Positions 1,511-18,041 of a DNA stretch of 34,890 nucleotides are shown here, one piece after another. The DNA is from a virus: positions 1 through 34,890 of the IMG/VR virus record IMGVR_UViG_3300028706_000023; one strand, written 5' to 3'. Numbering within the stretch: the stretch's first letter is position 1; every line of letters starts with the position of its first letter. The notes below the pieces were generated by a model that was not told where the DNA came from, did no database searches, and worked only from the letters and a program-made list of their open reading frames with translations. Made by a program: the position numbers and the translations under genes.

Positions 1511-3125
1511 ACCATTAGCTCCTCTAGTATTAGACTCAATAGGTGTGTTTGGATTAAATACCCAAGCTAACGCTTCTAGCTTAGATCATCGTTGGTTAGT
1601 CAAAGCAGATAACATCATGATTAACTCTGAGGGTCGTCTGACTTCCCGTAAGGGTATTCGTCAGGTGTCGGAGTCTATAGGTAACTTCCCTGTTAAGTCC
1701 TTACACACCCACCAGCATTTAGATGGCTCACTCTCTCTAATAGGATCAGCTAATAATAAGATATATAAAGCTGATCTATCTGTAGTACCTGCTACAATGA
1801 CAGAGCAGATCTTTGCTAGTACTCCTTATACTGTTACAGGTGATAACTGGCAATGGGTACAGTATGATGATGACTCTATAGGCGTACAAGCAGGACATAG
1901 ACCTATACATTATAATAGTACTACCCATGTATGGGAAGACTTAGAAGACACTTCTAGCTACAATGCTCCTACAGGAATAACCACTTTCGATCCTTCCTGT
2001 ATCTTAGCTAAGTTCGGTCGTCTATGGGCAGCAGGTATGTCTGAGGATAAGGAGACTATCTTATATTCTAGAACACTGGCTCACCATGAATGGAATGGAG
2101 TTGGTTCTGGCACTATTAACATGAGGTCTGTGTGGGGCTTTGACGAGGTTGTCTCCTTAGCTTCATTTAACGGTAAGTTGATTATATTCGGTAGAAATAA
2201 CATAGCTATCTATAATGATCCTTTTGATCCCGATGGTGATGGTTTTGGTTTAGATGAGGTAATACATGGAATCGGATGTGTCGCAAGAGACTCGGTGCAG
2301 GCTTTCGGTGATGATATTCTTTTCTTATCTGCTGACGGTGTTAGGTCGCTTAATCGCACTAAAATACAGGACAAGATGCCCCTAACAGACTTGACTAAAA
2401 ATGTCAAGAATGATATCATTAAAAACATTACATCCTCCCAATCAGAAGATATTAAGTCCCAGTACAACCATACTGGTGGTTATTATATCATCTCATTTAC
2501 TGATCTCAATGAAACTTATATCTTAGACTTTAAGGCTATCAATCCTGATGGCACACCTCGTATAACTAAGTGGAACACTGATGCTATCCGAGCGCCTAAG
2601 TCTTTCCTATCCCTACCAAGCGGTACTCTATACTTAGGGCTGGGTTCCTCCACTTCAAGCCACACTTTTAACGGTGTTATAGCTAAGTATGATGATTACT
2701 ATGATCTAGACTATTCAGGAGCTACTCCCTCTAACCAGACATATCAGACTGTATTTAAAACAGTGTGGATGGACTTCGGTAATCCTTATACAGCCAAGCT
2801 ACTAAAGAAATTTAGTGTTGTTATAGATGGTGGCCGTGAGCAGGACGTTACTGTTAAGTGGTTTAGAGATTACAATGGTACTATTGGAGATTCTTCTACG
2901 TTCAGTCTGACTCCTGTATCTAGCGGCGTTATAGCTTTATTTGGTGATAGCACAAGCCTGTATGGTAATGTGAAGTATGCGCCTCTGTTCTTCCCTAAAG
3001 AGTACAGACTGAACCTAAGTAAGGCAGCTAAAGTAGTGCAGATAGAAATGATTAATTTAATTAAAGGATTTAAAGGCTCATTACAGAGCATGACGGTTCT
3101 AGCTAAAGAAGGTAAAATACGATGA
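1500..3125 (+). CDS. Tail tubular protein B-like (T7 gp12 nozzle family), 541 aa
   Basis: This is a long, beta-rich protein with repeated Trp/Gly/Asp motifs suggestive of a beta-propeller, as in the gp12 nozzle. Typical blocks are an N-terminal ADNIMINSEGRLTSRKG, then KFGRLWAAG near residue 175 and GKLIIFGRNNIAIY near 225. In T7-like phages six copies close the tail tip and take part in DNA ejection. It is shorter than T7 gp12 (about 790 aa) but comparable to versions in marine podophages. Its ATG lies inside the end of the tail tube A gene and its stop overlaps the next ATG by 4 bases, so these genes are one tight tail cassette. Confidence 0.8.
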   Translation: MPTKPLAPLVLDSIGVFGLNTQANASSLDHRWLVKADNIMINSEGRLTSRKGIRQVSESIGNFPVKSLHTHQHLDGSLSLIGSANNKIYKADLSVVPATMTEQIFASTPYTVTGDNWQWVQYDDDSIGVQAGHRPIHYNSTTHVWEDLEDTSSYNAPTGITTFDPSCILAKFGRLWAAGMSEDKETILYSRTLAHHEWNGVGSGTINMRSVWGFDEVVSLASFNGKLIIFGRNNIAIYNDPFDPDGDGFGLDEVIHGIGCVARDSVQAFGDDILFLSADGVRSLNRTKIQDKMPLTDLTKNVKNDIIKNITSSQSEDIKSQYNHTGGYYIISFTDLNETYILDFKAINPDGTPRITKWNTDAIRAPKSFLSLPSGTLYLGLGSSTSSHTFNGVIAKYDDYYDLDYSGATPSNQTYQTVFKTVWMDFGNPYTAKLLKKFSVVIDGGREQDVTVKWFRDYNGTIGDSSTFSLTPVSSGVIALFGDSTSLYGNVKYAPLFFPKEYRLNLSKAAKVVQIEMINLIKGFKGSLQSMTVLAKEGKIR

Positions 3126-3835
3126 GTAATTATACAATAGCAGTTGCTTGGAATAACAAAGATGCTCTCCAAGACTCTGATGTAGATAAGGTCATCTCAG
3201 GTGATGATTTCTGGACTGAGTTCTCAGCAGTACAGACTGCCCTCAACTCTAAAGCTGAACTAACTGGGTCTAATACACAAGCCTTTTCAGCTACTACAGC
3301 TACTGCTGGTACTAGCACTACACAAGTAGCTACTACTGCTTTCGTAGGTACTGCTATTACAGCAGCAGTTCCAACACAGTCTACTATAAATGACTATGCC
3401 TACCCAGTAGGGTCTATCTATACATCTGTTGTGAGTACGGACCCTGCTACCCTATTAGGAGTAGGTACATGGGTAGCCTTTGGTGCTGGTAAGGTCTTAG
3501 TAGGTCTAGATGCTGCTGATACTGACTTCGATACAGTAGAATCATCTACAGGTTCGACAGGCACTGGTGGTACTAAGACTCATACTCTTACAGAAGATGA
3601 AATGCCAGCTCATAATCATAAGGGTAACTTTATGATGGAATCTGACTCACCTTCTAATGACTTCGCATCAGGCACAGATACTTCGGTAGCTAACCCCGAT
3701 GGCAACGTCTTAGACCATACTACCGTAGGCTCCGCGTCTAAATACAACCCTATCGGTTCTACGACAGGTTCAGGCAACGCACATAATAACGTACAGCCCT
3801 ACATCACAGTATACTTTTGGAAACGCACTGCGTGA
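3122..3835 (+). CDS. Tail fibre / baseplate protein with collar-type C-terminal domain (237 aa)
   Basis: The N-terminal third is Thr/Ala/Ser-rich and repetitive (about residues 45-90, TTQVATTAF). The rest carries the hallmarks of phage collar or T4 gp10/gp12-type domains: YPVGSIYTSV near residue 95, GTWVAFGAGKVLVG near 117, then LTEDEMPAHNHKG near 158 and a final HNNVQPYITVYFWKR. In that fold the HxH and histidine-asparagine pairs bind metal in a trimer. A short receptor-binding or tail-tip fibre is the likely role. The gene overlaps the previous stop by 4 bases (ATGA) and shares GTGA with the following HNH gene. Confidence 0.78.
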   Translation: MSNYTIAVAWNNKDALQDSDVDKVISGDDFWTEFSAVQTALNSKAELTGSNTQAFSATTATAGTSTTQVATTAFVGTAITAAVPTQSTINDYAYPVGSIYTSVVSTDPATLLGVGTWVAFGAGKVLVGLDAADTDFDTVESSTGSTGTGGTKTHTLTEDEMPAHNHKGNFMMESDSPSNDFASGTDTSVANPDGNVLDHTTVGSASKYNPIGSTTGSGNAHNNVQPYITVYFWKRTA

Positions 3836-4242
3836 ATCGTATAAAAGACGTTATATGTTCTCATTGTGATGCTACATTCCAAGCAGCCCGTGTGGATGCT
3901 AAGCGATGCCCAGCCTGTAGGGAGGTCTACTTGCAGGCGTATAGACGCAAGCCTTCTACAGTTCAAAGGAAGAAAGATATACATAGGAAAGTAAGAGAAG
4001 AAGCGTTTGCAGGGTATGGTGGTAAATGTACCTGTTGCGGTGAAGATAAATTCGAGTTTTTAGCGCTAGATCATGTTTTTGGTGGTGGCGGTCAGGAGAG
4101 AAAAGTGAAATCAACACATCAGATAGCTAGGAAAGTAATCACACAGGACTTCCCTAAAGAATATCAAATCTTATGTCATAATTGTAATATGGCAAAGGGG
4201 TTCTTTGGTAAGTGCCCACACGAACAAGAGAGGACAGCATAA
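3832..4242 (+). CDS. HNH-type endonuclease with Cys-rich N-terminus (136 aa)
   Basis: Near the N-terminus two CxxC pairs (CSHC and CPAC) could bind zinc. A second zinc-like pair, CTCC, precedes LALDHVFGGG (the conserved D-H of the HNH core). ILCHNCNMAKGF follows with the final His/Asn residues. This matches small free-standing HNH endonucleases common in phages. The likely start is GTG at 3832, overlapping the fibre stop as GTGA; an in-frame TTG at 3817 is possible but lies deeper in the fibre gene. It sits between tail and internal virion genes, where it serves no obvious structural role, so it is probably a mobile homing-type gene. Confidence 0.8.
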   Translation: MNRIKDVICSHCDATFQAARVDAKRCPACREVYLQAYRRKPSTVQRKKDIHRKVREEAFAGYGGKCTCCGEDKFEFLALDHVFGGGGQERKVKSTHQIARKVITQDFPKEYQILCHNCNMAKGFFGKCPHEQERTA

Positions 4243-9724: not shown

Positions 9725-10294
9725 CTAGCCTACGACTTCATCGAATAGGCCATGCTTCACCGCCTCTTCTGCTGTTAACCATACGTTGTTAGGTTTCAAT
9801 AGATGCTTCTCTATGTACTTCCTACTCTTCTTAGTGTGCTTCATGTAGTGCTTCATAATGTTCTCATTGATCTGATCAAATAAAACACTCTCAGCCTCTA
9901 GGTCTGCAAACGTACCTGAACTACCAGCACTAAACTGATGACTGAGGATAGAAGTATTCTTATGTACCTTACGCTTGCCCTTAGCTCCTGTCATAGAGAT
10001 GAGCAGACCACACGATGCAGCCATCCCAGTGGCATACGTAGCGATAGGGAACTTATGACTCTCCATCTTATCTAGTAATGCGAAAGCAGAGTGTAAGTGG
10101 CCTCCTGAACTATTCACTATGATCTCTAGAATATCCTTCTCCTCACGAGGTACGGTATCATACTTATATAAGAATCTTAAGGCTCTCTCTACACTACCTG
10201 AATGAATATCATCCATAAGTAGATGACGCTTAGAGGCCCACATTGGATCATCTTCTAACATTACTTCTGGTCCTAATAGTTCTAACATTTCCAT
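9725..10294 (-). CDS. ClpP-like serine protease (189 aa)
   Basis: Fold landmarks of the ClpP/S14 family are clear: IIVNSSGGHLHSAFALLD (residues 58-75), the nucleophile Ser94 in GMAASCGLL, His119 in SILSHQF and a C-terminal LTAEEAVKHGLFDEV. At the place of the third catalytic residue (Asp171 in E. coli ClpP) the sequence has KPNNVWL, so Asn170 seems to replace Asp. It is the last gene of the leftward block, directly before the terminator, not in the capsid region. This argues against a dedicated prohead protease. It could modify host proteolysis or process a phage protein; the target is unknown. No Clp ATPase gene is present. Confidence 0.85.
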   Translation of the reverse strand: MEMLELLGPEVMLEDDPMWASKRHLLMDDIHSGSVERALRFLYKYDTVPREEKDILEIIVNSSGGHLHSAFALLDKMESHKFPIATYATGMAASCGLLISMTGAKGKRKVHKNTSILSHQFSAGSSGTFADLEAESVLFDQINENIMKHYMKHTKKSRKYIEKHLLKPNNVWLTAEEAVKHGLFDEVVG

Positions 10295-12373: not shown

Positions 12374-12527
12374 GTTCCTCAAACTCCCCTCTGTCTATTA
12401 CCAGCATTAGCTTATCATCAAACCTCTCTAGCAAGTCCTCAGTAGTTATCCCTAAGATTTCTACTAACAGGTCTGTATCATAGTCTCTGATAATATCTTC
12501 TATTAGTTCTTCTACTGTCTTAGCCAT
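12366..12527 (-). CDS. Small acidic protein (53 aa), unknown
   Basis: A short reading frame beginning MAKTVEELIEDIIRDYDTD and continuing with LVEILGITTEDLLERFDDKL ends at TAG 12366-12368. It fills what would otherwise be a gap between endonuclease I and the DUF3310-type gene, overlapping both neighbours by 8 bases. It is strongly acidic and predicted all-helical. The ITTEDLLERFDDKL block looks like a short helix-turn-helix-like hairpin that I recall from other small phage proteins, but I cannot name a family. Tight overlaps on both sides and the Asp/Glu-rich coding pattern support it as a real gene. Confidence 0.7.
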   Translation of the reverse strand: MAKTVEELIEDIIRDYDTDLLVEILGITTEDLLERFDDKLMLVIDRGEFEEHG

Positions 12528-12894
12528 TTTGTTCTTTACTCCATTTGTTCAGTTCTTTTAACTGATCAGAAGCGAACCATTTGATATCATGCTTATCACA
12601 CCAAGTAGCATTGGTTAATTTAGAACCCTTACGTAGTCTAGCATGAGGCTTAGACCAAACAAAGACTAAGATCTTACCTTCCTTTAACATTTGTAGGTGG
12701 ATAGCCTTGTATTTCTGAGTATCTCCTGATCTAAAGAACCCTTTGACTTCAATGTAGATGTTACCCTTTATGAAGTCTGGGTTATAGGTCCTATGGATGG
12801 TGTACTTCATCTTCTCAGACTCATACCCCCACCCATCTAGACCTACGGCTACTCTAGCCTCTAATTTACTTCTGTACTTTGGCAGTTTTGCCAT
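12520..12894 (-). CDS. Endonuclease I-like Holliday-junction resolvase (T7 gp3 family), 124 aa
   Basis: The active-site pattern of T7 endonuclease I is present: Glu12 in SKLEARVA, Asp40 in YNPDF, and Glu49/Lys51 in YIEVKGFF (Glu20, Asp55, Glu65, Lys67 in T7). Length is a little under the 149 residues of the T7 protein. The enzyme cuts branched DNA, resolving junctions before packaging and helping to break down host DNA. It lies in the replication cluster next to a RecB-like exonuclease, which suits joint host-DNA degradation. It overlaps the DUF1737-like gene upstream by 29 bases. Confidence 0.88.
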   Translation of the reverse strand: MAKLPKYRSKLEARVAVGLDGWGYESEKMKYTIHRTYNPDFIKGNIYIEVKGFFRSGDTQKYKAIHLQMLKEGKILVFVWSKPHARLRKGSKLTNATWCDKHDIKWFASDQLKELNKWSKEQNG

Positions 12895-13048
12895 TAGCCT
12901 TACCCTTTAGTAGTGCTTGTGCCATCTGTCCAGTACCGCTTATAAAAGGACTACCATGTAATTCCCAACCTTCATTGAGCCACTTATTCACTAAGTCCTC
13001 AAAACGATCTGGGCGTGGGGTCTGTACTACTTTAAATTCAATTGCCAT
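12866..13048 (-). CDS. DUF1737-like small protein (60 aa)
   Basis: The first 35 residues follow the DUF1737 pattern: an N-terminal strand (EFKVVQTPRPDRFEDLVNKW) then LNEGWELHGSPF, with a conserved Gly-Trp pair. The C-terminus is Lys/Gly-rich. The family is small and uncharacterised, found in both bacteria and phages. It lies 5 bases downstream of the exonuclease gene and overlaps endonuclease I by 29 bases; a GGAG about 13 bases before its ATG may serve as the ribosome site. No enzymatic residues are evident. Confidence 0.75.
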   Translation of the reverse strand: MAIEFKVVQTPRPDRFEDLVNKWLNEGWELHGSPFISGTGQMAQALLKGKANGKTAKVQK

Positions 13049-13053
13049 AATGC

Positions 13054-13902
13054 TTACTTATTCTCCGTTACTTCAATTACTCGTGGGACGTTCCACACTT
13101 CAGTTAAAAACTTAGGTCCATTGCTGTATAAGAATGTACGTAGTTCAGGATAACAGGTTTTCTTAAAATCACAGTAGGAGCATTTAGTAGGTAGCTTCAT
13201 ATTACCTGACTTACCATCTGCTACTGGACTAGCACAAGGCTCTGGCATCTCTGTGCTATTAACTACTTCTTTCAAGTGATCAATGCGGTCTGTGATTGCC
13301 TTACCTTGAGTTAAGTCTATCATGGCTAATGCTAGTTGTCCATTAACTTTATCCATTGCTAACCAACCGCCCTCTTTAACATCTAAGCCATGCCCGTATC
13401 CTTTTAGTTGGTCTACATAGCCAAAGGGATCATCAAACTCTACAGTATTGTCTTTGAACTTCTTGAAGCCAAAGCTAGAGGCTGATTTAACATCAATAAG
13501 TGTACCATCTATAGTACAGTCCATAGAGCCTTTGACTCCATTGACCTCTACCTTACGTTGTTGGTTCTCTACTTTGTGTCCTGATAGTTCTGTAAGTAGT
13601 AATAACATCTCCTCCAGTACGTGACCATATAGGAACTTAATCAACGTAGGGGCGCTCAGAGGTTCCCTCACGGTGCCTTTGGAGTTAAGCCATACCTGTC
13701 TATCAGGTTTGCCTACGGACGACATACGTAAGCGTGTGGTGTCTCCTCTATCTTGGAATAAAGAATCAAATACTACATCAGCAACATTATCACCAAATCG
13801 TTTGAACGCCTTATCTATGTCTACTCCTTTAGATACTTTGCTAGTAGTCATTAGCTCGTAGATATCTTCTACTACTGTTTCTACTGTTTTAGTGTGTTTC
13901 AT
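13054..13902 (-). CDS. PD-(D/E)XK exonuclease, RecB/Cas4-like (282 aa)
   Basis: Nuclease motifs in order are His94 and Glu97 in LYGHVLEEML, Asp128 in GSMDCTIDG, and Asp137-Val-Lys139 in LIDVKSAS, the signature of RecB/Cas4/lambda-exonuclease-like enzymes. Near the C-terminus Cys223, Cys241, Cys244 and Cys250 (PTKCSYCDFKKTC) could hold an Fe-S cluster, as in AddB/Cas4 enzymes. The position between polymerase and endonuclease I corresponds to the gp6 exonuclease of T7-like phages, which removes RNA primers and degrades host DNA. Its first codons ATGAAACACAC overlap the end of the HNH gene by 14 bases. Confidence 0.82.
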   Translation of the reverse strand: MKHTKTVETVVEDIYELMTTSKVSKGVDIDKAFKRFGDNVADVVFDSLFQDRGDTTRLRMSSVGKPDRQVWLNSKGTVREPLSAPTLIKFLYGHVLEEMLLLLTELSGHKVENQQRKVEVNGVKGSMDCTIDGTLIDVKSASSFGFKKFKDNTVEFDDPFGYVDQLKGYGHGLDVKEGGWLAMDKVNGQLALAMIDLTQGKAITDRIDHLKEVVNSTEMPEPCASPVADGKSGNMKLPTKCSYCDFKKTCYPELRTFLYSNGPKFLTEVWNVPRVIEVTENK

Positions 13903-14368
13903 ACTTGTTTCCTTTAGTTAAATTCTCGGATGCTTTGATTATCTGTAAGTTATTCTCTACATGTAACCCTGATACATTCTTACCTTTGAGAGGGATGATA
14001 TGATCTACATGATAACTACGAGGCCCATATTCCTTTATTAAGCGTTTACATTCTTCATATACCTCTTTTATTTTAGATAGGTCTGCCCATTTAGGTGTTC
14101 TTTGTCGCTTACGTTCATAGCGTAGTTTGTTGTACTGGTTAACATACCCCTTATTATCTTTCTTCCATTGTAGCTTACGATGATGTTCTTTAAGTCTGGT
14201 TTCTTCGGAGGAATATACCCTAGCCTCTCTTACCGCATTCCATTTCTGACCATCTATTCTCTTACAGACTACACACCTGTACTTGTGGTTTCTAACACAA
14301 CTAACCAGCCAGTTAGCCCCTTCCACTAAGGGGTCAGAACAATCAGTACAGAATCTAGTGTGTTTCAT
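13889..14368 (-). CDS. HNH homing-type endonuclease inserted between polymerase and exonuclease (159 aa)
   Basis: The N-terminus has zinc-binding-type pairs (CTDC and CVVC), a basic central region (KLRYERKRQRTPKW) and a C-terminal HNH domain: YHVDHIIPLKGKNVSGLHVENNLQII, ending NLTKGN. The gene starts inside the last codons of the polymerase gene (14-base overlap) and its own last codons overlap the exonuclease start by 14 bases. Both borders carry the same 15 bases, GTATGAAACACACTA, so both proteins upstream end in Tyr-Glu-Thr-His. This indicates recent insertion of a mobile endonuclease gene without damaging either neighbour. Confidence 0.88.
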   Translation of the reverse strand: MKHTRFCTDCSDPLVEGANWLVSCVRNHKYRCVVCKRIDGQKWNAVREARVYSSEETRLKEHHRKLQWKKDNKGYVNQYNKLRYERKRQRTPKWADLSKIKEVYEECKRLIKEYGPRSYHVDHIIPLKGKNVSGLHVENNLQIIKASENLTKGNKYETH

Positions 14369-14370
14369 AC
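13890..14370 (-). repeat. 15-bp direct repeat bordering the HNH gene
   Basis: GTATGAAACACACTA (minus strand) occurs at 14356-14370, at the polymerase-HNH overlap, and again at 13890-13904, at the HNH-exonuclease overlap. The two copies are identical over 15 bases and 466 bases apart; three bases (AAC) just upstream also match after a two-base difference. Excising one copy plus the gene would fuse the polymerase stop directly to the exonuclease start with the same overlap. Confidence 0.85.
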
Positions 14371-16082
14371 CAGTTACTTCCTATCTTAGCTTCACCGTCC
14401 AAAGGACAATTCATATTTAATTCAATACCTGCATTGACCATAGCCCTTACAGCTAACTCACCAAAGCGTACTGCATCCTTCTCTATTACTTGAGTCTGGA
14501 TTTCGTCATGGATATTACCTATTAACTTAAAGTCAAGGTTTTCTTTCTTAGCATCCTCATATAATAATACTAGGGCTTTCTTCATCACTATCGCCCCTGC
14601 TGACTGTAAGAGGTAATTAGGTGCTGAATGCTCGCTTTTGACTTTTATCTTTCTACCATCCAAACCCTTCAAGTAACCTCTATTAGATGCTTTCTTTACC
14701 TTAGTGATTAAGTTAGCTAACGAGGGTATATTATCGAATAAGGTAGTCTTTAGCTTCTTACCTGCTGAAGCAGAACCGTTAATTATCTCCCCCATCTTAG
14801 CATCACCAGCCCCATAGCACAGAGCATATATCATCGTTTTGGCCTGATCCCTAGTTTCTAAACCAGCCATGTTCTGATTATAGGTATGTATATCACCATC
14901 TAAGATCTGATTAGTGTAATCCTTATCGTTCATGTAGCTGGCAAGCATTCTCAATTCTAAACCAGAAGCGTCCATACCAACTAGCTTATAACCTTTAGGT
15001 ACAATCCAGCACTCCCTACATTCCTTACCATAAGGACTATATCCAGCAGGAACTTGAGCTACGTTAGGACTACTGTGGCTCATACGGTTTGTCTGTGCGC
15101 CTATGGGGTTAACGTAACCGTGTACTCTACCATCCTCTTCCATTGAATCAATCCAACTAGATACCATACCTACACGCTTCTGTAGTAGGAGATAGTCTTT
15201 GATTAGGATGGCTTCTGGTATGTCTACCCCATCTAAGATCTTCTCGTCTACCATTGGCTTGCCTGTCTCAGTGAACTGCTGAGGCTTCCAACCATAGTGC
15301 ATTAGGTATCGACCTATCTGCTGACGGCTACCTAAGTTAAAGATAGGATATTCAAACACACCATAGCTAAAGTTATCATCATAGTGATAGCCTTTATCCC
15401 TATGCTTCTGCATTATAGCTGCTTCAGTGCCATCCTTCTTCAGAGGGTTCTTAGGGTAGTTCTTCTCTACCCATACTGGTAGTGGTTGGAACCTCTCACG
15501 TACCTTAGCCTCTGCATCTAACATACTCTCTTTGAGTTCAGCTAATAACATGAATGCTTTCTTTTCGTCTAATAACCAACCATTACGTACCTGTTCAGAG
15601 ATAATAGAATGTACGTCCATCTCTAGTTGTATTGATTCAGGAGAGAACCCCTTCGCTTCTACTAAGAGATGTTTATAGACTAATACGTTAACTGCTACAT
15701 CATTGATACAGTATTCTAACATCTCGTCTGTATACTGAGAGAAGTCTGTGAAGTCTCCCTTTAAGTTACCTAACTTCTCACCCCATGCCTTGAGGGAATG
15801 ACCACCCTCCCTTACTGGATTGAATAACCGAGACATCACTAAGGTATCCGTTAGCTTAATGCCTGTGAAGTCACAACCTAATAATCTCTCTAAGACAGGT
15901 ACATCATACCCTAAGATGTTATGGCCTATAATCTCAGCAATACCATCAAGATTAAAGCTGTTAACTTCGTAAGGTGTATAGTGAGTAACCTCATTAGTGT
16001 CAATATCATGACATACAATACACCATAGCTTATCTGGAGTTAGGCCGTTAGCTTCAATGTCAAGTACTATTCTATTACTCAT
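14355..16082 (-). CDS. Family A DNA polymerase with 3'-5' exonuclease, T7-like (575 aa)
   Basis: Proofreading motifs are intact: Exo I DIEANGL (Asp8, Glu10), Exo II HNILGYD (Asp60) and Exo III YCINDVAV (Tyr124, Asp128). Polymerase motif A is GMDASGLELR (Asp371), motif B is RDQAKTMIYALCYG (Arg411, Lys415, Tyr419, Tyr423) and motif C is NIHDEIQ (His525-Asp526-Glu527). Tyr419 corresponds to E. coli Phe762 and T7 Tyr526. At 575 residues it is shorter than T7 gp5 (704). It replicates the genome together with the primase-helicase and SSB of this block. Its end overlaps the inserted HNH gene; the DUF551-like gene ends 2 bases before its ATG. Confidence 0.95.
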   Translation of the reverse strand: MSNRIVLDIEANGLTPDKLWCIVCHDIDTNEVTHYTPYEVNSFNLDGIAEIIGHNILGYDVPVLERLLGCDFTGIKLTDTLVMSRLFNPVREGGHSLKAWGEKLGNLKGDFTDFSQYTDEMLEYCINDVAVNVLVYKHLLVEAKGFSPESIQLEMDVHSIISEQVRNGWLLDEKKAFMLLAELKESMLDAEAKVRERFQPLPVWVEKNYPKNPLKKDGTEAAIMQKHRDKGYHYDDNFSYGVFEYPIFNLGSRQQIGRYLMHYGWKPQQFTETGKPMVDEKILDGVDIPEAILIKDYLLLQKRVGMVSSWIDSMEEDGRVHGYVNPIGAQTNRMSHSSPNVAQVPAGYSPYGKECRECWIVPKGYKLVGMDASGLELRMLASYMNDKDYTNQILDGDIHTYNQNMAGLETRDQAKTMIYALCYGAGDAKMGEIINGSASAGKKLKTTLFDNIPSLANLITKVKKASNRGYLKGLDGRKIKVKSEHSAPNYLLQSAGAIVMKKALVLLYEDAKKENLDFKLIGNIHDEIQTQVIEKDAVRFGELAVRAMVNAGIELNMNCPLDGEAKIGSNWYETH

Positions 16083-16084
16083 TT

Positions 16085-16390
16085 CTACCCCCTATGTCCA
16101 TATTGTTCTACACCATTACCATGCCTAACTGAACACCCTAAAGGATCTTCGTCACAGTTTGGATATGAGTAGCACCCTATGTGTTCATCACAAGAACCAT
16201 CATCCTCTTCTTCAACAGGGATAAGTTCTTCTGGAACAATAGGCACAGGCATCCAATGTGAGATTTTCCACACTTCAAACTCTTCGTTGCTGTAATGCAA
16301 AGCATCTACTTCACCGTTACCATCTACTATCAATACAAACTGGCCTTCATATGGTAGTTTATCACTAACATTAATCCAATTAGAAATCAT
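16085..16390 (-). CDS. DUF551-like protein with Cys-rich tail (101 aa)
   Basis: Residues 1-51 fit the DUF551 pattern: WINVSDKLPYEGQFVLIVDGNGEVDALHY at the start and KISHWMPVPIVPEE at about 43-56. The family is common in phages, and its function is not known. The C-terminal 40 residues are acidic and then contain four cysteines (CDEHIGCYSYPNCDEDPLGC), an extension that could bind metal. The gene overlaps the primase-helicase stop by 11 bases and lies 2 bases before the polymerase start, in a continuous translational chain. Confidence 0.8.
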   Translation of the reverse strand: MISNWINVSDKLPYEGQFVLIVDGNGEVDALHYSNEEFEVWKISHWMPVPIVPEELIPVEEEDDGSCDEHIGCYSYPNCDEDPLGCSVRHGNGVEQYGHRG

Positions 16391-18041
16391 AGGCTTCTGT
16401 CTCCTGTATGATAGGCGCTTGGCCTGCCTCTAGTCTACTAGTCTCACTGTTATAGTACAACCAACCGCCTGTGCCTGTATTACCTGTTCTACGGCACTTA
16501 ACTAGCTGTATCTTAGTAGAGTTCCTAGCGTATTCATCTTCTGACATTTTATCACGCGACAGTAGGATTGTGTTGAATGCAATCTGGTTGATAGATCCAG
16601 AACCCTTCATATCGTACTCGTTTACATCATGTGCATCTTTAGCACTAGGCTTACGCATATGGCTAACTACGATGATACTAACTCCAGTTTCCTTAGCTAG
16701 CTTTAGGCATTTATCCATGAAGTCGTCAATAATACCATTGTCGTTAGAGGTCACGGCGGCCTGTAGTGGGTCTAAGATAAGAACATCACAGTCTAAACCT
16801 TTAACCATATAACGCATCTTAGAGAATAGTTCATCAGCCTCTAGAGCCCCTTGATGGTCTAAGATGTGTAGCTTGTCTGTATCTGCCAACTCTAGGTACT
16901 TCTTATGTAGCATATCATAATCACGGTCTGGCTGTGGTACGTTAGAGATGTTAGTACCAATATGTACTGATAATAGTTTCTCTATTGTCTCACTGACATC
17001 AGACTCTAAGAAGATACATCCAATACGCTTATTAGATTCCATGAGCATATCATACACTAGATTGTATACTACTGTAGTCTTACCTATCGAAGTTAATGCG
17101 CCTAACACTGTAATCTCTCCAGCAGCGATGCCACCATTCATCATGGCATTCAAGGAACCAAACGCTTTAGGTAGGGGAGTTACTTCCTCTGTACCTCTCT
17201 TGATGAATAAGTCCCAGTTATCAGCATCAGACAATGACACTACTCCAGCAGGTCTATGTGTCTTAGCAGACCACCAATTGTCTGTGAACTCTTTGACCTT
17301 ACCTTTCATAAGCATATCAGAAGCATCCTTTAGGGGCATCTGCATTACTTTAACTTTGTTAGGTGAGAATAAACCTACTACATTCTTAGCTGCTTCTTTT
17401 CCTGCATCATCTTGGTCAAAGCATAGGATGACATTTTCATAAGTCTCTAAGAACTCAAGTGATTCCTTGATCCCCTTTACCGCACTACCAGCACCATTCT
17501 TTAGGCTGACTACAGGCCACTTACCGTGAAACATAGAACTAACCGCTAGAGCGTCTAATTCACCCTCTGTGACTGTAATGTAACGACCACCACGGCCATC
17601 AAATACATTCTGTCCGAATAAGCCAGCAGAGCCTAAGTCACCACTACAGAAGAACTGCTTGCCTTTAACCACACGGGTCTTTAGGGCTGTCTTATTACCT
17701 TCACCATCATAGAAGGGGTAGTAGTGCTTAGTGATAGCACCCTTAGCATCATACTCAACAGTAACACCAAACTTATCCATGATGTCTTGAGAGATCCTAC
17801 GGTCTGCTAGAGCACCTCTAGTCCCTTTGATTAGGTCTGCTTGTGTGTATGTCTTATTAGTCATTGTAGGCTTTATCTCCCGTACATTGTTTATATTCGT
17901 ATTCGTATAGTAACCACAACCTATAGAGTAACAAGATGAATGACCATCCTTATATAGGACTAGGTTATCTCTAGAGTTACACTTAGGGCAGGGCCCTTTG
18001 CTCTCTACTTCTGAGTTTTCTCTACTATACTCTCTAGCCAT
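16380..18041 (-). CDS. Bifunctional primase-helicase (T7 gp4-like), 553 aa
   Basis: Domain order is a zinc ribbon (Cys18, Cys21, Cys37, Cys42), a Toprim primase core with TEGELDALA (Glu159) and FDQDDAG (Asp209, Asp211), then a RecA/DnaB-type helicase with Walker A GALTSIGKTT (314-323) and Walker B-like LILDPLQA. The length is close to the 566 residues of T7 gp4. It unwinds DNA 5'-3' and makes primers for the polymerase encoded downstream. The ATG at 18041 is chosen because GGAGAGGA lies just upstream and the zinc ribbon begins soon after; an in-frame ATG 20 codons earlier lies inside the preceding gene. It overlaps that gene by 37 bases. Confidence 0.93.
   Translation of the reverse strand: MAREYSRENSEVESKGPCPKCNSRDNLVLYKDGHSSCYSIGCGYYTNTNINNVREIKPTMTNKTYTQADLIKGTRGALADRRISQDIMDKFGVTVEYDAKGAITKHYYPFYDGEGNKTALKTRVVKGKQFFCSGDLGSAGLFGQNVFDGRGGRYITVTEGELDALAVSSMFHGKWPVVSLKNGAGSAVKGIKESLEFLETYENVILCFDQDDAGKEAAKNVVGLFSPNKVKVMQMPLKDASDMLMKGKVKEFTDNWWSAKTHRPAGVVSLSDADNWDLFIKRGTEEVTPLPKAFGSLNAMMNGGIAAGEITVLGALTSIGKTTVVYNLVYDMLMESNKRIGCIFLESDVSETIEKLLSVHIGTNISNVPQPDRDYDMLHKKYLELADTDKLHILDHQGALEADELFSKMRYMVKGLDCDVLILDPLQAAVTSNDNGIIDDFMDKCLKLAKETGVSIIVVSHMRKPSAKDAHDVNEYDMKGSGSINQIAFNTILLSRDKMSEDEYARNSTKIQLVKCRRTGNTGTGGWLYYNSETSRLEAGQAPIIQETEAYDF

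Follow-up and report, generated by a model that had tools for sequence, protein, structure and literature searches.

A doubled gene overlap flanks an HNH endonuclease gene between the DNA polymerase and exonuclease genes of a marine phage: a probable case of intergenic homing

Introduction

Phage genes are tightly packed, with overlapping ends, and how a mobile gene could get in between two of them while sparing both is not self-evident. The question is raised by the phage of IMG/VR record IMGVR_UViG_3300028706_000023, a marine phage known only from this record, of which the whole stretch analyzed (34,890 nucleotides) is referred to here as the window. A gene encoding an HNH endonuclease lies between the genes for a family-A DNA polymerase and a PD-(D/E)XK (Cas4-like) exonuclease, and the overlap is present twice, with each copy serving two genes.

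Results

Organization of the polymerase–exonuclease junction

All three genes are on the minus strand. The polymerase gene (14355..16082; PF00476, E=1e-46; phrog_17) ends with the codons IGSNWYETH and a TAG stop, the HNH gene (13889..14368; 159 aa) starts MKHTRFC and ends KGNKYETH followed by TAA, and the exonuclease gene (13054..13902; phrog_1990 Cas4-domain exonuclease, 2e-40, and a weak PF12684 match) starts MKHTKTVET. As the original prediction had it, the same 15 bases, GTATGAAACACACTA, lie at both borders of the HNH gene, in exact minus-strand copies at 14356-14370 (left) and 13890-13904 (right). The left copy holds the end of the polymerase (YETH-stop) and the HNH start (MKHT), and the right copy the end of the HNH gene (YETH-stop) and the exonuclease start (MKHT), again as predicted; the two overlaps are 14 nt each and each falls within one copy. 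There is no further site in the window with two or fewer mismatches to GTATGAAACACACTA, and the two sites with three mismatches are the number expected by chance. Gene overlap per se is ordinary here, as six of the ten adjacent gene pairs on the minus strand of this cluster overlap.

The HNH protein has a CxxC...CxxC arrangement in its N-terminal half and an HNH motif in its C-terminal part (YHVDHIIPL..HVENNLQ..N..KGNKYETH). Its assignment to nucleases with an HNH (beta-beta-alpha metal) core draws on a weak PF01844 match (E=0.0018, just under the gathering threshold), matches to phrog_26577 (1.7e-20), phrog_1035 endonuclease VII (2.7e-11) and phrog_144 HNH (1.3e-7), the invariance of H120, D122, H123, N140 and N149 among 23 relatives, and a predicted structure (pLDDT 84) with a C-terminal strand-strand-helix. 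A Foldseek search with this model gave no significant match, the best being the Gme HNH nickase (E 0.28), and a profile search of the PDB with the protein gave no credible match. The gene has its own start and stop codons and its neighbors are intact, such that it stands between conserved genes as a gene of its own, outside any intron or intein; no Rfam RNA was matched at 12500-16500, and thus no group I intron is recognized there. Elsewhere in the window, a second HNH-like ORF (3817-4242, plus strand; CxxC motifs and LALDHVFGGGG..LCHNCNMAKG) overlaps the 3′ end of the gene at 3122-3835 and has no Pfam or NCBIfam match, and a ClpP-like protease gene (9725-10294, minus strand; PF00574, E 6e-31) adjoins a ribonucleotide reductase gene.

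Two Shine-Dalgarno-like sequences can be read at the borders, AGGAAG (14377..14382, minus strand) within the polymerase IGSN codons, 8 nt before the HNH ATG, and AAAGGA (13910..13915, minus strand) within the C-terminal HNH codons KGN, 7 nt before the exonuclease ATG. Translational coupling at both borders is plausible, given the presumed function of these sites. The start of the next ORF overlaps the 3′ end of the HNH gene in 46 of 72 members of the HNH family.

Junctions lacking the HNH gene

Searches of viral contigs with the polymerase, HNH and exonuclease yielded 105 distinct polymerase–exonuclease junctions; 28 are empty, and the other 77, among them that of the window, are occupied. Exonuclease-homologous residues read into the polymerase in 19 of the empty junctions, 13 of them in the frame seen in the window. 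Comparison with HNH-free phages was capable of refuting an insertion, and matching junction sequence is present in several of them. In L203 and L205, whose polymerase and exonuclease are 54% and 51% identical to those of the window, the polymerase ends NWYETH-stop, the exonuclease starts MKHTDTLVED, and the two genes overlap directly through TTGGTATGAAACACACTGATACATTAG in the same frame as in the window, with 14 of 15 nt matching; the L349 junction is the same. The Pelagibacter phage HTVC115P (MN698247), the nearest isolated phage by polymerase (50%), similarly has a direct overlap in this frame between the polymerase gene and gene 26 with GAAACACACTAAGACATTAG, within the longer stretch GAAACACACTAAGACATTAGATAC, although it has no HNH gene and its annotated exonuclease start is further upstream, inside the polymerase gene. 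The L037 group, also HNH-free, has the overlap in this frame too, and it shares GAAACACACTA with HTVC115P. Open-licence full texts on pelagiphages gave nothing useful on this junction.

In a comparison of the 20 bases that follow CACT, HTVC115P and the right border in the window agree at 15 positions, whereas the left border, which leads into the HNH gene, agrees with the right at only two; the most natural reading of the right copy is thus as the former polymerase tail, which has stayed joined to the exonuclease. The closest HNH-free relative found, L183 (polymerase 67%), has a short gap and no overlap between the two genes, and the ancestral state of the exact lineage of the window is therefore taken from remoter phages (50–54% polymerase identity). 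The same junction minus the gene is seen in L203, L205, L349, the L037 group and HTVC115P, and in a second type of phage in L246–L252. The expectation that removing the gene together with one copy would restore a direct polymerase–exonuclease overlap is borne out by the first of these sets, in frame, and their direct overlaps indicate that the junction was an overlapping one when the gene arrived and that the overlap has been kept on both sides. Insertion into a direct overlap is thus supported by these sequence comparisons.

How unusual is the doubled overlap?

At only one of the 77 distinct occupied junctions, that of the window, does the exonuclease start repeat at least 8 nt of the polymerase end from the same junction (15 nt). 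The others have 4–7 nt, similar to controls in which polymerase ends and exonuclease starts were swapped, and none of the 5852 swapped pairings reaches 15 nt. These controls, together with the lack of any other window site with up to two mismatches, rule out general codon bias at unrelated gene ends as the source of the repeat, which the original prediction had named as a possible refutation. Copies of at least 11 nt of a polymerase's own tail within 2.5 kb downstream occur in three of 186 distinct polymerase 3′ contexts, compared to one case in the upstream control: the window (15 nt), L079 (11 nt, at a gene start) and L189 (11 nt, 2.1 kb away), the last probably by chance.

The L079-type junction is instructive. 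In L080 the polymerase end GGAGTGAAACACACTGA is followed by an ORF without a Pfam match and then by AATAATGAAACACACTAAG, which starts a PD-(D/E)XK-like gene, so that in L079 and L080 an 11-nt copy flanks an insert with no recognized nuclease domain; in L076 a gene related to that at the L079/L080 junction overlaps the polymerase gene directly. Any insertion into an overlap that leaves a viable phage should thus double it, and doubling does not by itself prove homing.

A site where nuclease genes are exchanged

L004 and L005 are 98–99% identical in the polymerase (last 900 nt) and exonuclease (first 800 nt) genes, with 96–100% identity beside both edges of the insert and a local drop to 66% some 2.3 kb upstream of the polymerase stop. 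Between the polymerase stop and the exonuclease ATG, however, they carry unrelated nucleases, an EndoVII-type gene (PF02945) in L004 and an HNH gene in L005. EndoVII genes are recognized at this junction in L003, L004 and L013 (PF02945), with similar proteins in L008–L011, and further nucleases recognized at such junctions are of the GIY-YIG (T5orf172) and PD-(D/E)XK-like classes. The comparisons support the view that the junction is a mobile site and a nuclease hot spot.

The closest kin of the window HNH (48–63% identity) overlap the polymerase 3′ end in the second phage type, whose polymerase is about 32% identical to that of the window and in which a 5′-3′ exonuclease gene (PF02739) follows. 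There, the HNH gene starts within the polymerase codons NYAEIH-stop and the ATG of the next gene lies within the HNH codons KSNKY; the two overlaps differ in sequence, i.e. there is no duplication. Sister lineages vary in the presence of the gene, with L101 having it and L251 and L252 lacking it (100/100 fork). In the full-length HNH tree the window and L005 genes pair with support of 97/91, but the path from the window is shorter to the second-type genes (0.77) than to L005 (0.98), even though the L005 polymerase is 76% identical, and the pair is not recovered in a tree of the nuclease half. That the closest kin occupy the polymerase 3′ end in phages of a different kind is consistent with horizontal transfer into a favored site, and together with the L004/L005 exchange it provides indirect evidence, from sequence comparison, that the gene moves independently of its neighbors; between the phage types, HNH identity is 60–63% and polymerase identity about 32%.

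Other arrangements were also seen. L103 and L104 have two tandem HNH genes of this family between the polymerase and 5′-3′ exonuclease genes. In the HNH-free second-type phages L246, L248, L251, L252, L266, L268 and L271, the polymerase stop and the next ATG are 19–21 nt apart, and this leader resembles the last HNH codons, KSNKY (CAAAGAGTAATAAATATG) or KKGNKY; as between a scar of HNH loss and a pre-existing leader, the tree requires four changes and favors neither. In Erwinia phage RF1 (L291) a related HNH gene (2968-3471) is upstream of a DNA polymerase I gene; the annotated start of the latter overlaps the HNH 3′ terminus and comes after the AAGGGGAAC codons of the HNH gene.

Age of the insertion

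Four-fold degenerate sites of the polymerase and exonuclease genes differ by 37–50% between the window and L005, and the right copy, deleted or altered in relatives, remains intact in the window. These observations point weakly to a date after the window/L005 split for the insertion, or at the least for the doubling, the comparison offering about 11 free sites, with zero changes. The proposal that the repeat could be used to date the event does not hold up further than this; the 15 identical bases are too short and the left copy is under dual coding constraint, so that comparing the two copies gives a weak bound at most.

Discussion

We consider that a free-standing HNH homing endonuclease gene was inserted into an overlapping polymerase–exonuclease junction with doubling of the overlap; intergenic homing is the best explanation and a reasonably probable one, in which we infer the cleavage, the repair route and the translation signals. 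In the starting phage, the polymerase and exonuclease genes would have overlapped by TATGAAACACACTAA, and the HNH-free junction of the window lineage would have read ..TGGTATGAAACACACTAAAACAGTAG... Most likely, the endonuclease cut or nicked an allele without the HNH gene, in or close to the conserved 3′ end of the polymerase gene, and the HNH gene may then have been copied into the junction during repair. On the left, joining could have used polymerase homology as far as the stop codon, and on the right the short stretch GTATG, common to the HNH gene end (..AACAAGTATG) and the overlap start (..AACTGGTATG). Resolution of both ends on the same overlap would account for its now being present twice. 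The polymerase would thereby have retained its C-terminal ETH, the overlap would have become the HNH start, the exonuclease would have kept its own MKHT start, and the HNH codons KGN would supply it with a new Shine-Dalgarno-like sequence. Several observations count against this scheme, namely the absence of an overlap in L183, the 11-nt copy around an insert with no recognized nuclease domain in L079/L080, the second-type HNH insertion that left no duplication, the supported window/L005 pair, which leaves room for the gene having resided there longer and L005 having lost its right copy afterwards, and the structure search with no significant match.

The main rival is that illegitimate recombination placed the HNH gene at the junction without any action of its enzyme, and that the doubling reflects the survival of insertions that spared both neighbors. 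A clean insertion into an overlap necessarily doubles or rebuilds it, the L079/L080 pattern surrounds a gene with no recognized nuclease domain, and many different genes take the same polymerase end as their start; yet most junctions are occupied, nearly all classified inserts are nucleases (EndoVII, HNH, GIY-YIG or PD-(D/E)XK), and alleles swap between backbones of 98–99% identity, above the expectation for rare accidental gain, and we regard this explanation as unlikely, though it deserves serious weight. Less probable still is long residence of the HNH gene, which would have come down together with the polymerase and exonuclease genes from an ancestor shared with L005, the right copy then decaying in L005 and staying intact in the window. 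The supported pairing of the two HNH genes would fit, as would the L005 exonuclease start, ATGAATAAAAC, which equals ATGAAACACACTAAAAC of the window minus ACACAC. However, the pair is lost when the nuclease half is analyzed alone, the two HNH proteins are 60% identical, well under the 73–76% of polymerase and exonuclease, and the right copy is unchanged in spite of the divergence at four-fold sites.

The direct repeat bounds the insert exactly, as it would if staggered nicking at both ends of the overlap and fill-in had produced a 15-nt target-site duplication like that of a transposon. Such duplication is not known for HNH homing enzymes; the repeat is the polymerase–exonuclease overlap, whose limits are explained without a stagger, the HNH gene fills the insert and does not encode a transposase, and the second-type kin lack such a repeat, all of which make this route very improbable. 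Chance, or convergence between a pair of gene starts that each require a Shine-Dalgarno sequence and ATG and end in TAA, has next to no likelihood: polymerase ends are indeed conserved (NWYETH-stop) and many next genes start MKHT, but neither the swapped pairings nor the rest of the window offers a comparable match.

Of the 57 stretches of viral contigs that contain TGGTATGAAACACACTR, 51 lie at the 3′ end of a polymerase gene (30–61% identity); the sequences after ATGAAACACACT in these stretches are varied, and many different next genes start MKHT at the conserved polymerase end. We speculate, while holding it short of likely, that the polymerase 3′ end (codons G-x-N-W-Y-E-T-H-stop, which also read Shine-Dalgarno, spacer and ATG-AAACACACT) is a docking site giving incoming genes immediate translation; that the HNH family, with its own 3′ mimic (K-G/S-N-K-Y codons as Shine-Dalgarno, spacer and ATG), is a translationally self-contained mobile cassette; and that an N-terminal MKHT in genes displaced from the polymerase is a fossil of past adjacency.

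Among known systems, the free-standing HNH and GIY-YIG homing endonuclease genes of T4 (mob and seg; intronless homing) are likewise intergenic nuclease genes beside conserved genes, and several of them overlap the upstream ORF, by 20 bp (segC), 11 bp (segF), 23 bp (mobA) and 24 bp (mobC), but at the window junction both borders overlap through one duplicated sequence, and the review describing the T4 genes makes no mention of duplication (PMC2988022). Among the homing endonuclease genes at exchange boundaries and in HEG islands (ICP1 and others), nucleases of different classes also replace each other at one place near essential genes, and IPA-HNH genes are near DNA polymerase in 29% of cases; these are other phage groups, for which overlap structure at the base level is not treated (PMC10448857). 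The F-CphI/DHHRN homing family carries an EndoVII motif, and EndoVII-motif nucleases can be homing enzymes (PMC6083498). EndoVII genes occupy the window-type junction in relatives, although the window gene encodes an HNH protein for which EndoVII is only the second-best PHROG match.

The HNH gene of the window is probably mobile, and its locus probably preserves the clean trace of a gene insertion at a place with a turnover of different nuclease genes. Since this one junction exists in related phages as empty, swapped and doubled alleles, it offers a single site at which the steps of intergenic homing can be tested.
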